Under the pieces are notes generated by a model. That model was not told the DNA's origin. It did no database searches and saw only the letters and a program-made list of their open reading frames with translations. A stretch of 64,000 bases of DNA from Pseudomonadota bacterium (GTDB lineage: Bacteria; Pseudomonadota; Gammaproteobacteria; Burkholderiales; Rhodocyclaceae), in contig JAFEDK010000026.1 in the NCBI GenBank assembly GCA_018241665.1, positions 62,001 through 126,000 on the forward strand, read 5' to 3'. Positions 6,010 to 17,603 of this stretch are shown here, in pieces; positions within the stretch are counted from its first letter, which is position 1; the number at the start of each line of letters is the position of its first letter. The translations under genes were made by a program, and so were the position numbers.

Positions 6010-6057
6010 AGTGTTGCCAAGGCCAGCCGGGAAACGAACCAATAAAAAGTGCTTTGC
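6010..6057 (-). promoter_or_regulatory. Sulfur-type operator/promoter upstream of the AraC gene
   Basis: On the minus strand: GCAAA (6057-6053), 10 nt of A/T-rich sequence, TTGGTT (6042-6037), exactly 21 nt, then AACACT (6015-6010) in the -10 position. The TTGGTTCG core and the 21-nt spacing recur before cysK, sbp and metY. The -10 here is the weakest of the four. The box directly abuts the stop codon of the upstream YeeE-like gene. Confidence 0.5.
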
Positions 6058-6546
6058 TTATCGGCGGCCGCGGGAATGCGGCACGCTCCACAAGCCCACC
6101 AGCATCCCGGCCACCAGCGCCAGCGCGGACGACGAACCGAAGCCCAGGGAGACCACCGCCGGCCCCGGGCAATAGCCGGCCAGGCCCCAACCGGCGCCGA
6201 ACAGCGCGCTACCGGCGATCAGGCGGGCATCGATGGCGCGCTTGGGCGGCAGGCATACCGGCAAGCCCGACAAGGTCGTACCGCGACGGCCGATGAGCAC
6301 CACGCCAACCCGCGCCGCGGCGATGCCACCGACCATCACGAAGGCCAGCGACGGATCCCAGGCGCCGAAGATATCCAGAAAACCCAGCACCTTGGCCGGG
6401 TCGGTCATGCCCGACAGCAGCAGGCCGACGCCGAACAGCAGGCCCGACAGCAGCGCACCAAGCAAGCCGGCGGTACGGGCCGCGCCCGTATGCGGCGCGG
6501 CAGTCACCGCGACGGCGGCCTGCTCATTCATGTGGGAGGCGCTCAT
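6058..6546 (-). CDS. YeeE/YedE-type (DUF6691) membrane protein, second half of a pair
   Basis: 162 residues from the ATG at 6546, overlapping the stop of its partner as ATGA (6543-6546). It has four to five hydrophobic segments and the conserved WGLAGYCPGPA motif near the end, with a cysteine at the pore-like position of YeeE/YedE sulfur-transport proteins. Paired short proteins of this kind (PF04143 plus DUF6691) are found across proteobacteria next to sulfur or sulfide genes. Known relatives include the thiosulfate transporter TsuA. Import of thiosulfate or another sulfur species is a reasonable inference, given cysKE, sbp and a sulfonate transporter nearby. Confidence 0.8.
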   Translation of the reverse strand: MSASHMNEQAAVAVTAAPHTGAARTAGLLGALLSGLLFGVGLLLSGMTDPAKVLGFLDIFGAWDPSLAFVMVGGIAAARVGVVLIGRRGTTLSGLPVCLPPKRAIDARLIAGSALFGAGWGLAGYCPGPAVVSLGFGSSSALALVAGMLVGLWSVPHSRGRR

Positions 6547-6992
6547 GCCCCTGCTCCCCCCAGCCCGTGCCGCACCAGGAATACCACCGCGATCGCGCTG
6601 CCCATGAACACCGCCACCGCCGCCAGCGAACGCAGGGACAGGCGAGCCAGGCCGCACACCCCGTGACCGCTGGTGCAGCCGTTGGCGAGACGCGTGCCGA
6701 CACCAACCAGCAAACCGGCCAGCAGCAGCAAGCGCGCGTCGGGAGCCTCCGCCGGAGCCGGAACGCCCAGCCCTGGCACGAACAGGTGCAGCACCAGCGG
6801 CGCCAGCAACAAGCCGGCCACAAAGACGAAGCGCCAGGCCCGATCGCCCGGTGCCCGCAGCAGCCCGGCCAGGATGCCGCTGATTCCGGCAACTCGGCCA
6901 TTCACCAGCAACAAGGCGGTGGCAGCCAGCCCGATCAGGGCTCCGCCAGTGACCGCAGACCAGGGCGTGAAGGCCTGCCAGGCGATACTCAT
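6543..6992 (-). CDS. YeeE/YedE family (sulfur transport domain) membrane protein
   Basis: 149 residues; start chosen at 6992 with AAAGG six bases upstream. Hydrophobic segments cover residues about 10-32, 50-70, 85-105 and 120-140. The motif NGCTSGHGVCG carries the cysteines characteristic of the family and lies between membrane segments. Together with the overlapping downstream gene it makes a two-subunit version of a full-length YedE transporter. A REPIN-like repeat lies just upstream (7051-7117), and I see no sulfur-type TTGGTT operator in front of this pair. Confidence 0.82.
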   Translation of the reverse strand: MSIAWQAFTPWSAVTGGALIGLAATALLLVNGRVAGISGILAGLLRAPGDRAWRFVFVAGLLLAPLVLHLFVPGLGVPAPAEAPDARLLLLAGLLVGVGTRLANGCTSGHGVCGLARLSLRSLAAVAVFMGSAIAVVFLVRHGLGGAGA

Positions 6993-7050
6993 TGGATACC
7001 TTTCGTTTGGTGAAGCGATCCCACCGGCCAACTCACTGTGGCGGCGAATT

Positions 7051-7117
7051 CCGTGGGGGCGAATTCATTCGCCCTGTGTGCGTCGATCTGCCACCGCGGG
7101 CGAATGAATTCGCCCCA
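7051..7117. repeat. REPIN-like inverted pair of palindromic repeats, copy 2
   Basis: The left arm (7051-7076) and right arm (7092-7117) contain GGGGGCGAATTCATTCGCCC and its reverse complement, separated by about 15 nt. It is located in the 157-bp gap between the FadL-like gene and the YeeE pair, all on the minus strand. It may double as a transcription-attenuating hairpin after the FadL-like gene, since no T-run terminator is visible there. Same family as 340-410 and 45038-45108. Confidence 0.85.
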
Positions 7118-7148
7118 ACAGGAACAGTGGATCAACCGGCCCCGCGCA

Positions 7149-14894: not shown

Positions 14895-14945
14895 GTCGAT
14901 CTTTCCAGTAATACAGCCGGACCAGCCGGGGCCCGCATTCTCGTC

Positions 14946-16082
14946 CTAATGTATGTACGAAATATGACTTGGCGCTCGGCTGTTTGTAAGCAAGGAATGC
15001 ACATCGCCGGAGTGGAATTCGGCCAGGAAGCGCCGGATCGCCGGCTCGAAGCGTGCCGCGTCGATCAGGAAGCCATCGTGGCCATGCTCGGAGTCGATGG
15101 CGATCAGGCTGGCCCGCGACAGCTGACTGACGAGGAGCAGCTGATCCTCCGGCACGTAGAGCGCATCCGACGGCACCGAGCCGACCAGCACCGGCTGGCG
15201 GATCTGTTCCAGCGCCAGCCTGCAGCCCCCCCGCCCACGGCCAATGTCGTGGCTATCCATCGCGTCGAGGAGAACCCGGTAGCTATGCGCGTCGAAGCGG
15301 CGGGTCAGGCTGTCGCCGTGATGGCGCAACCAGCACTGCACGGCCAGTGCATCCGGATCAAGGGCCCGGGCGCCGAAGATCTCCTCGGCGGCGCTGCGCC
15401 CAAAGCGCCGGCTCAGCGACGCCGGGCTACGGTAGCCGACCATCGCCATCGCCCGTGCCGCGGCGAGGCCCGCCAGCGGTGGATCGGACGGATCGTAATG
15501 GCCGTCGCGATACTTCGGATCGGCCGCCAGCGCCAAGCGCTGGGCTTCGCTCCAGGCCACGCACCACGGCGAATGGGCCGCCGAGGCTGCGATCGTCACC
15601 ACCGCGCCGACCCGCTGCGGATCGAGCAGCGCCCACTCCAGCGCCTGCAGGCCGCCCATCGACCCGCCGATCACGAAGCGGATGCGCCGTATGCCGAGGG
15701 CATCGGCCAGCGCGATCTGGGCGCGCACCTGGTCGCGGATGGTGAGGCGCGGAAAACGCGCGCCCCACGGCTGGCCGTCCGGCGCCGGCGTCGTCGGCCC
15801 AGTGCTGCCGTAGCAGCCGCCGAGCACATTGCTGCAGACGATGAACTGGCTACTCGGGTCGAGCGCCCTGCCCTTGCCGAACAGCGGCGCCCACCAGTCA
15901 TCGGCATCCGCCGAGCCGGTCAGGGCGTGGCAGACGATCACCGCGTTATCGGCCCGCGCAGATAGCTGGCCCCAGGTCCGGAAGGCGATCTGCGCACCGG
16001 GCAGGCTGTCGCCCGACTCCAGCGCGAAGTCGCCCCCCATCTGGAACAGGCGGGTCTGGTCGGACAGGCGCACAGCGCTCAT
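14946..16082 (-). CDS. metX: Homoserine O-acetyltransferase (or succinyltransferase) of the MetX family
   Basis: 378 residues from the ATG at 16082, overlapping the metY stop as ATGA. An alpha/beta-hydrolase-fold acyltransferase. The nucleophile elbow is [15 protein letters not shown] (S141), the oxyanion region [12 protein letters not shown], and the C-terminal acid-base pair includes GHDGFLID. It acylates homoserine in methionine synthesis; the acyl donor (acetyl or succinyl) cannot be settled by eye. In many betaproteobacteria metX is followed by metW; here it is not, and metY precedes it instead. The C-terminal tail ([19 protein letters not shown]) is slightly longer than usual. Confidence 0.92.
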
Positions 16083-17404
16083 GCCGCCGCTTCCAGCCCG
16101 GCCCGCCGCAGCGCGTGGTCGAAGTCGGCCTTGATGTCCTCGATGTGCTCGATGCCCACCGACACACGGACCAGGTCCGGCCGCACGCCGGCGCTCTTCT
16201 GCTCGGCTTCCGACAGCTGCTGATGGGTGGTGGACGCCGGGTGGATCACCAGCGTCTTGGCGTCGCCGACGTTGGCCAGGTGGCTGGCCAGTTCCACGTT
16301 GTCGATGAAGGTCCGCGCCGCGTTGGCGCCGCCCTTGATGCCGAAGTTGAGTACCGCGCCAAAGCCGTTGCGCAGGTACTTCTTTGCCAGCGCGTGGTAG
16401 GGGCTGTCTTCCAGGCCGTTGTATTCGACCCACGCCACCTGCGGATGGGCTTTCAGCCAGTGGGCCAGCTCAAGGGTGTTTTCCAGGTGGCGCTGCACAC
16501 GCAGGGACAGGGTCTCGACGCCCTGCAGCAGCTGGAAGGCGTTGAACGGCGACAGGCTCGGGCCGATATCGCGCAGGCCTTCGACGCGGGCGCGAATCGC
16601 GAAGGCGATGTTGCCGAAGGGGCCGCCGCTGCCGAACACTTCCCAGAAGTTGAGGCCGTGGTAGCCCGGCGCCGGCTCGGTGAACAATGGGAACTTGCCG
16701 TTGCCCCAGTCGAACTTGCCGGAATCGACGATCACCCCGCCGATCGACGTGCCATGGCCGCCAATCCACTTGGTGGCGGACTCGACGACGATGTCGGCAC
16801 CGTGGTCGATCGGCCGCGCGATGTAGCCGCCGGCGCCGAAGGTGTTGTCGACGATCAGGGGGATGCCGGCCTCGTGGGCGATCTGCGCCAGCGCCTCGAA
16901 ATCGGGAATGTTGAAGCGCGGGTTACCGATGGTCTCCACATACAAGGCCTTGGTGTTGGCGTCGATGGCGCGGCGGAAGTCCTCCGGGTCGTCGCCCTCG
17001 ACGAACTTCACGTCGATGCCGAGGCGCGGCAGCGTGACCTTGAACTGGTTGTATGTGCCGCCATACACGTAGCTGGTGGACACGATGTTGTCGCCGGCCT
17101 GGGCGATGGTGGTGATCGCCAGGAACTGGGCGGCCTGGCCCGAGCTGGTGGCCACCGCCGCGACGCCGCCTTCGAGCGCGGCGATGCGCTGCTCGAAGAC
17201 GTCGGTGGTGGGGTTCATGATGCGGGTGTAGATGTTGCCGAACTCCTTCAGCGCGAACAGGCGCGCGCCGTGGTCGGCGTCATTGAAGGTGTAGGACGTG
17301 GTCTGGTAGATCGGCACCGCGCGGGCATTGGTGCCCGGCGCCGGCTGCTGGCCGGCATGGACCTGCAGGGTTTCGAAGCGGTAGGCGGCTTTGCGGTCGG
17401 TCAT
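16079..17404 (-). CDS. metY: O-acetylhomoserine sulfhydrylase (aminocarboxypropyltransferase)
   Basis: 441 residues from the ATG at 17404. A Cys/Met metabolism PLP enzyme: substrate motif [16 protein letters not shown]-ring region [10 protein letters not shown], and the PLP lysine in [10 protein letters not shown] (K212). The length of about 440 and the [13 protein letters not shown] segment identify the OAH sulfhydrylase branch rather than MetB/MetC (about 390). It makes homocysteine from O-acetylhomoserine and sulfide, allowing direct sulfhydrylation. Coupled to metX by a 4-bp overlap. The 263-bp upstream gap contains the sulfur-type operator at 17551-17603; I found no convincing SAM riboswitch. 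Confidence 0.94.
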
Positions 17405-17550
17405 GGCGGCACTCCCTGGAGTCTTGGATCGAAGCGCATCCTGGCCCGCCCTGCGCCGACTTCCCGCTGCCCCCCAGCATCGGGGGGAACTGCAACCGGC
17501 TTGTATTTGTGCAGAACATGGCGCGGGCCAGCCTGCATCTGAAGGTTTCG

Positions 17551-17603
17551 ACTCTAGCCCCGTCGCCGCAGGGCCCAAACCAAGCAATTCTTATGTACTT
17601 TGC
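17551..17603 (-). promoter_or_regulatory. Sulfur-type operator/promoter of metY-metX
   Basis: On the minus strand: TTGCAAA (GCAAA at 17603-17599), 15 nt, TTGGTT (17583-17578), 21 nt, TAGAGT (17556-17551). Same spacing as cysK both upstream (15 nt) and downstream (21 nt). The leader would be about 140 nt, the longest of the four. Confidence 0.6.

Follow-up and report, generated by a model that had tools for sequence, protein, structure and literature searches.

The 64,000-nucleotide stretch analysed here, which we call the window, belongs to contig JAFEDK010000026.1 of a bacterium of the Rhodocyclaceae and carries four sulfur-related transcription units on its minus strand: an araC-led operon, a cysK-led gene group, the sulfate-binding protein gene sbp, and metY-metX (Table 1). 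Each unit is preceded by a site in which the core TTGGTT is followed, after exactly 21 nt (N21), by a −10-like hexamer, and we consider it likely that these sites combine an activator operator with the promoter of a sulfur-limitation regulon of the CysB/Cbl type. Products of the araC operon include an SsuABC-like transporter and an enzyme resembling acyl-CoA dehydrogenases, which would have a desulfurising role. Gene spacing suggests that the cysK operon extends through epsC, xre, fadL and yeeE, and the sbp promoter probably also serves the YdeN-type hydrolase gene behind sbp.

A conserved promoter architecture before sulfur genes

Direct reading of the minus strand confirmed the four core positions given in an earlier note on this DNA, together with the exact 21-nt gap from TTGGTT to AACACT, TAGTGT, TAGACT and TAGAGT before araC, cysK, sbp and metY, respectively. 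TTGGTT occurs seven times in the window on both strands taken together, and the other three copies have no TAnnnT at N21. A 57-position weight matrix, built with the four window sites included, scores these sites between 40 and 56, and the next best place on either strand of the window reaches 1.6. In the complete assembly of the same organism (5.4 Mb, 55 contigs, 99.95% complete) the pattern TTGGTT-N21-TANNNT occurs 11 times, against 3 for the pattern read backwards; the araC site lies outside these 11, as its hexamer departs from TAnnnT both in the window (AACACT) and across seven araC sites (AACACT, AAGACT or GAGACT).

The spacing was examined before sbp in 80 loci, using up to 320 nt ahead of the aligned start and allowing TTSGTT to be followed by TAnnnT at any spacing from 8 to 40. 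An N21 arrangement was found in 40 of the 80 loci, the second-best spacing (17 nt) in 7, and the reverse strand gave a maximum of 3 at any spacing, which bears out the argument of the earlier note that the spacing is not due to chance. The Sbp protein of the window is 84-96% identical to those of loci L009-L019 (ten Zoogloea and one 'Proteobacteria bacterium'), which points to a Zoogloea-like betaproteobacterium as the source of the window; outside this set 29 of 69 loci still carry the N21 site. Before cysK it is present in 8 of 9 loci examined. This prevalence at sbp and cysK indicates that the 21-nt spacing is real and old, and the promoter architecture as such is real and conserved. The crowding of four sites into one 11.6-kb stretch would fit coincidence, or functionless descent from duplicated promoters, but the site is kept in orthologues, recurs ahead of unrelated genes on separate contigs and is present in other families, which leaves this explanation a negligible probability.

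None of the four promoters has a proper −35 element, as had been pointed out, since the hexamer 17 nt before the −10 reads TTCGCC, TTCGCT, TTTGGG or TTCGTT. A conserved element lies just upstream of this poor −35, where an activator site would be expected, and the architecture is very probably activator-dependent. The strict conservation of both hexamers and of their distance could also be read as an alternative sigma factor promoter, with TTGGTT as −35, TAGACT as −10 and no activator. That reading is very unlikely: 21 nt exceeds the −35/−10 spacing of sigma-70-family promoters, conservation extends over about 20 bp ahead of TTGGTT (more than 1 bit at positions −18 to −16, −13, −12, −8 and −6 to −2 relative to the core), and this upstream part varies by gene class, as an activator site would. 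No clear palindrome was seen in this left arm on inspection by eye, and a search of the window with Rfam at gathering thresholds for RNA elements near the sites yielded only three tRNAs. Taken together, the results support a single architecture shared by the four units.

Table 1. Predicted sites and genes of the window; E-values of sites are from a held-out model (R1), and the left-arm classes A and B are described in the text.
Feature	Position	Strand	Details
Predicted operator/promoter of araC-ahpD-acad-ssuBAC	6010..6066	-	left arm GATAAGCAAAGCACTTTTTA, class A; TTGGTT 6042-6037; AACACT 6015-6010; E=2.3e-5
Predicted operator/promoter of cysK-epsC-xre-fadL-yeeE	10693..10749	-	left arm TTGCAAACCTACTGAATTATTG, class B; TTGGTT 10725-10720; TAGTGT 10698-10693; E=9.2e-6
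Predicted operator/promoter of sbp	12634..12690	-	left arm GGAATAAGCAAACGAATTTTTC, class A; TTGGTT 12666-12661; TAGACT 12639-12634; E=1.1e-8
Predicted operator/promoter of metY-metX	17551..17607	-	left arm CTTGCAAAGTACATAAGAATTGC, class B; TTGGTT 17583-17578; TAGAGT 17556-17551; E=0.021
3' end of EAL-domain gene	1..303	+	own site 609 bp before window, at C18:61392-61424 within 61374-61424, E=0.0076; gene runs toward ssu operon
ABC permease	486..1235	-	PF00528
SsuA-like binding protein	1232..2470	-	PF13379; TIGR01728 97.8 bits, under cut-off
ABC ATPase, nitrate/taurine/sulfonate type	2522..3322	-	PF00005; TIGR01184 and PRK11248 best, under cut-off
Acyl-CoA-dehydrogenase-like enzyme	3319..4404	-	PF02771; no NCBIfam match at E<=1e-15
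ahpD-like, carboxymuconolactone decarboxylase family	4401..4961	-	PF02627
araC, AraC-type regulator with cupin domain	5056..5979	-	PF12852, PF12833
Two YeeE/YedE-type sulfur-transport genes	6058..7031 (6543-7031, 6058-6657)	-	first PF04143 over cut-off; second PF20398, PF04143 under cut-off
FadL/TodX outer-membrane transporter	7149..8444	-	PF03349
Small XRE regulator	8458..8694	-	PF01381
epsC-type serine O-acetyltransferase	8682..9659	-	NF041874 over cut-off
cysK, cysteine synthase A	9656..10633	-	TIGR01139 458 bits, over cut-off
YdeN/RBBP9-type serine hydrolase behind sbp	10789..11475	-	PF06821
sbp, sulfate-binding protein	11592..12599	-	PRK10752 559 bits, over cut-off
metX, homoserine O-acetyltransferase	14946..16082	-	PRK00175 over cut-off
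metY, O-acetylhomoserine sulfhydrylase	16079..17404	-	TIGR01326 706 bits, over cut-off

Predicted targets in the genome and across Zoogloea

For R1, a sequence-only model of 57 positions, the training set comprised 19 sbp and cysK sites from other species and none from the genome of the window; the model was used for the genome scan that the earlier note had called for. In that genome R1 gives seven matches with E<=0.021. All lie a short distance upstream of genes that either are sulfur genes or adjoin them, so that the motif is not random with respect to sulfur genes. After sbp, cysK and araC, the ranking continues with C53:141195 (E=3.7e-5), which heads a Ser_hydrolase gene (PF06821) beside sbp2-cysTWA-cbl; C21:59975 (4.7e-5), which heads a rhodanese - XRE - family-2A encapsulin - cysteine desulfurase cargo operon; C18:61374 (0.0076), the site of the EAL-domain gene; and metY (0.021). 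Weaker matches follow at C53:135481, which heads the sbp2-cysT-cysW-cysA-cbl-like operon, and at two places on C8 (E=0.35 and 1.0). No annotated R1 match heads cysDN or cysH, genes that were not specifically sought, and the two weak C8 matches are unannotated. The targets found are genes of sulfur uptake and cysteine synthesis, as a CysB/Cbl-type regulon requires.

All 23 Zoogloea genomes contain matches at E<=1, and 60 of the matching stretches were annotated, mostly by tblastn with proteins of the window's genome. Outside these 60 lie 28 matches (L116-L143), as well as two at E<=0.1 (G097:C266 and G096:C124:3644); from the range 0.1-1 the 60 include L203 alone (E=0.35). Recognisable sulfur genes or operons are headed by 39 of the 60 sites: rhodanese-encapsulin (12), araC (7), cysK (5), metNIQ-type transporters (5), sbp2-cysTWA (3), fadL-yeeE (2), a site 1.47 kb before metY (2), sbp (1), a GntR gene with a flavoprotein of the fumarate-reductase/APS-reductase-like family that we take to be AsfA-like (1), and a sigma-54 activator, presumably SfnR-like (1). 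Among the metNIQ-type stretches, L188 was assigned with NCBIfam (best with the MetN, MetI and MetQ models, each below its cut-off) and the other four by similar first residues. Eight further sites head the hydrolase gene, which lies beside a cbl-like gene in six of the eight, ten head EAL-domain genes (seven of one family and three of a second), and three (L164, L166 and L198) have no assigned gene; L164 keeps a 34-residue EAL fragment. The site is kept before araC in seven further Zoogloea genomes, which, together with the gene content of the operon, supports the view, put forward from the window, that the araC operon belongs to a sulfur regulon.

Several neighbouring genes recur beside these sites. 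EAL-domain genes, cyclic di-GMP phosphodiesterase-like and of two families, bear the sulfur operator in 10 of the 60 stretches. YdeN/RBBP9-type hydrolases are tied to the operator twice, through a site of their own beside the cbl-like gene (L107:10435-11160) and through the gene behind sbp in the window (10789-11475). Relatives of the small XRE gene of the rhodanese-encapsulin operon occur downstream of epsC in cysK stretches of the genus, and the window contains a small XRE gene too, at 8458-8694. In L144, from the same genome as L016, araC is located after cysK-epsC; the 320 nt ahead of this araC contain no strict site, and the gene may be served by the cysK site.

The earlier grouping of cysK and metY apart from sbp and araC holds over 75 distinct Zoogloea sites, on another basis than the one first given. 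That basis was a half-turn shift of a GCAAA element, which in the window is indeed separated from the downstream TTGGTT by 15 nt at cysK and metY, and by 10 nt at sbp and araC. Zoogloea orthologues do not preserve GCAAA: 1 of 12 sbp sites and 5 of 7 araC sites have it at −15, and for position −20 the counts are 4 of 10 for cysK and 0 of 12 for encapsulin, so that the half-turn explanation falls. The difference in the left arm stands, and the groups are two different left arms. Class A, with ATA followed by A or T at −19, covers 41 of 42 sites of sbp, sbp2, hydrolase, araC, both EAL families, the asf-like and sfnR-like genes and L164, and none of the 33 others; class B, with TGnAA at −21, covers 28 of the 33 sites of cysK, encapsulin, metY, metNIQ, fadL and L166, and none of the 42 of the class A set.

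The metY site is less uniformly placed. Seven genomes have a metY at least 95% identical to that of the window; four of them carry a site, which lies directly before metY only in the window's genome. The three others have a closely similar site about 1.47 kb before metY (L176, L211-L213), with a paaK-like CoA-ligase gene between in L176, and the remaining three of the seven have no site within 1.5 kb upstream. In the window, the gene for a 1318-aa AMP-binding/hexapeptide protein ends just upstream of the metY site. Outside Zoogloea, a Ferriphaselus locus (L036) has a strict TTGGTT-N21-TACAGT 160 nt before a 59%-identical metY relative.

Family-2A encapsulin operons

The rhodanese - XRE - family-2A encapsulin - cysteine desulfurase operon at L108:3585-7575 encodes a shell protein matching NF041162 at 552 bits and a cysteine desulfurase cargo matching NF041166 at 916 bits, both over their cut-offs, which places it in family 2A. 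NF041162 matches occur in 19 of 200 genomes of the order, including that of the window, and the stretches upstream of 19 shell genes from the 18 other genomes were examined. A matrix score above 1.5 is reached in 9 of the 19 on the coding strand and in 3 of the 19 on the other strand. Against a background of 2.5 million positions from which sbp promoters were excluded, 1.4 scores above 1.5 are expected in about 57 kb of one strand, compared with the nine observed (P=2e-5); for scores above 10 the figures are 0.8 expected and six observed (P=2e-4).

The nine sites are spread over six families (f2, f8, f10, f27, f31 and f49). L232, L233, L238 and L241 each have a site 71-89 nt ahead of the called start of the rhodanese gene that heads rhodanese-epsC-encapsulin; L248 has a site about 70 nt before the gene and L243 has two sites (distances from the alignment); in L247 the site heads sbp-epsC-encapsulin. 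One of the nine, L246 with a score of 1.6, is doubtful, and in L239 an SsuA-like gene lies behind the site. Among the ten without a site, the stretch of L231 covers hardly anything ahead of its shell gene. On the reverse strand, divergent motif copies scoring 17-21 lie beside the encapsulin promoters of L233, L241 and L243. We thus present the family-2A encapsulin operons of six other families as newly predicted targets. By eye, the encapsulin sites of these families mostly have the ATA-type arm, and for this reason class B may be a specialisation of the Zoogloea side.

The candidate regulator and its relation to known systems

Two genes of the window's genome exceed the NF009327 cut-off for the CysB family. 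One, CysB1 (C4:47298), is divergent from TauE-sulfite reductase genes and scores 452 bits with the CysB equivalog, over its cut-off; the other, Cbl-like (C53:139421), ends the sbp2-cysTWA operon, and it reaches neither equivalog cut-off but has a higher score with the Cbl model than with the CysB one. In a tree of 82 proteins the CysB and Cbl types separate. Among the 75 searched genomes of the sbp loci, 65 have a CysB-family match at E<=1e-80. A strict sbp site is accompanied by a CysB-family gene over cut-off in 36 of 36 searched genomes, and all ten genomes lacking an E<=1e-80 match also lack the site. The proposal of a CysB/Cbl-type activator is consistent with this family association, and co-distribution refines it in favour of the Cbl-like gene for sbp-type sites: in the 47 of the 75 genomes that could be classified (G035, represented by a single copy, was omitted), a strict sbp site occurs in 21 of the 33 that have a Cbl-clade gene and in 1 of the 14 that lack one (Fisher one-sided p=3.5e-4). 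Judged by this distribution, the Cbl-like paralogue is most likely the reader of sbp-type sites.

That CysB proper reads all sites is a real, if minority, possibility. CysB1 passes the CysB equivalog cut-off and enteric bacteria are known to use CysB as their master regulator, but CysB1 and its divergent TauE-cysI neighbour have no site, of the 14 genomes lacking any Cbl-clade member (nine from one family) 13 have no strict sbp site, and nine genomes with CysB-type genes only have no R1 match. The last point weighs little, since six site-bearing Cbl genomes also gave none. A reader of another kind, either the AraC-type protein of the window or another LysR-type protein, would draw on the 53 LysR-type model matches in the genome and on the fact that the araC gene itself bears a site. 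It is unlikely nonetheless: the site occurs in many families, but an araC relative was found in only 6 of 80 sbp loci in a test confined to the neighbourhood, and the association with the CysB family is strict in one direction (36/36).

Several observations weigh against a CysB/Cbl-type regulon read mainly by the Cbl-like protein. No strict site precedes cysK in 12 loci outside Zoogloea, and the site of sbp2-cysTWA itself is weak with the held-out model (E=0.33). The 7-kb TauE-cysI (sulfite reductase) stretch has no site, with a best coding-strand matrix score of −20 and one better place (4.4) on the other strand inside the cysI-like gene; a second reductase-like locus on C37 reaches −19.7 on the coding strand; and cysB1 has no site. 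The protein tree is rooted at its midpoint, 12 of the 33 Cbl-bearing genomes have no strict site at sbp, and G045 has the site and no Cbl-clade member. Nine of the 14 Cbl-less genomes come from one family (Methylophilaceae by name), so that the p value overstates their independence. In Cbl-clade genomes outside the genus, R1 finds matches in 7 of 16, three of which (G015, G018 and G021) supplied training sites, and six Cbl-bearing genomes with a strict sbp site (G019, G029, G033, G039, G052 and G067) have no R1 match. R1 is therefore tuned to Zoogloea, and its empty control (0 matches at E<=0.1 across 19 genomes, of which 10 lack any CysB-family gene and 9 have the CysB type only) speaks for a low false-positive rate and not for absence of a diverged motif. 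The TauE-like and sulfite-reductase-like genes divergent from cysB1, at L110:175-2799, carry no operator copy. Autoregulation of CysB1, and control of TauE-cysI, through this motif are rejected, as no site was found there.

On balance, we favour a mechanism in which a LysR-type regulator of the CysB/Cbl family would bind an element of about 26 bp, made up of the left arm (−22 to −1) and TTGGTTC and located at roughly −60 to −33 relative to the start, with the left arm centred near −49 if the −10 hexamer is used. Bound there, the regulator would replace the missing −35 contact of a sigma-70 promoter, a role that in this proposal accounts for the invariant 21-nt gap to the −10. The genes switched on under sulfur limitation would then be those for taking up sulfate and sulfonates (sbp, sbp2-cysTWA-cbl, araC-ssu), for making cysteine and methionine (cysK-epsC and metY-metX, with metNIQ-type transporters in relatives) and for the rhodanese-encapsulin-cysteine desulfurase compartment. 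From the sequences we infer the identity of the regulator, activation over repression, the start points and the signal. With more doubt than confidence, we raise a two-letter code in Betaproteobacteria, in which class A (uptake, signalling) might be read by a Cbl-like protein and class B (cysteine and methionine synthesis, encapsulin) by CysB or a CysB/Cbl mixture, the two sets answering different degrees of shortage and the same system being the missing metY/metNIQ regulator.

The system is of a known kind; what is new is a well-defined operator, two operator classes and several predicted targets. The araC-ssu, sfnR-like and asf-like targets are, we presume, of the kind under Cbl or SsuR control, and as in Cbl/SsuR regulons a Cbl-clade gene lies inside a target operon; unlike those regulons, the architecture described here also serves cysK and metY, and the Cbl-like role is a candidate one drawn from sequence. 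The enteric CysB regulon (cysP, cysJIH, cysK), as treated in the sections of PMC11329422 used here, shares sulfate transport and cysteine synthase targets and an activator site upstream of the −35 region, which here is a predicted one. Its activating sites are centred 50-60 bp before the start, a geometry that the present sites would fit if their −10 hexamers are in use, and their consensus is called very weak, with sites not confidently assigned; here, in contrast, the consensus is strong and at a fixed distance, sulfite reductase (a classical CysB target) has no site, and encapsulin, EAL, metY and, in relatives, metNIQ-type genes have one. The family-2A encapsulin SrpI of Synechococcus, again from partial texts (PMC8049743, PMC8346489), is induced by sulfur starvation and has rhodanese and serine O-acetyltransferase genes as enriched neighbours. 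It shares with the present operons the pairing of encapsulin and cysteine desulfurase, but those portions of the SrpI accounts describe no operator (CysR is mentioned once in PMC8049743), whereas a predicted one appears in this analysis. No paper treating encapsulin and CysB together was found in the literature searched. Methionine regulons (MetJ, MetR, SahR, riboswitches) overlap in the targets metY and metNIQ and differ in that some Zoogloea genomes have the sulfur operator there. The literature searched holds no description of this operator, nor do the available portions of PMC5002191 and PMC6966769, and the terms looked for are absent from PMC5343134; subscription papers, supplementary files and RegPrecise site lists were outside its scope, and a partial earlier description is possible.

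In summary, our analysis suggests, for a family of regulators with sites described as barely definable, an operator that is sharp and fixed in position. It also offers a candidate regulator for metY and metNIQ, which, according to the part of PMC4239095 drawn on, are reported, with metK, as genes of Betaproteobacteria for which attempts found no regulator. Finally, it leads to the prediction that betaproteobacterial family-2A encapsulin compartments would belong to the CysB/Cbl sulfur-shortage response.

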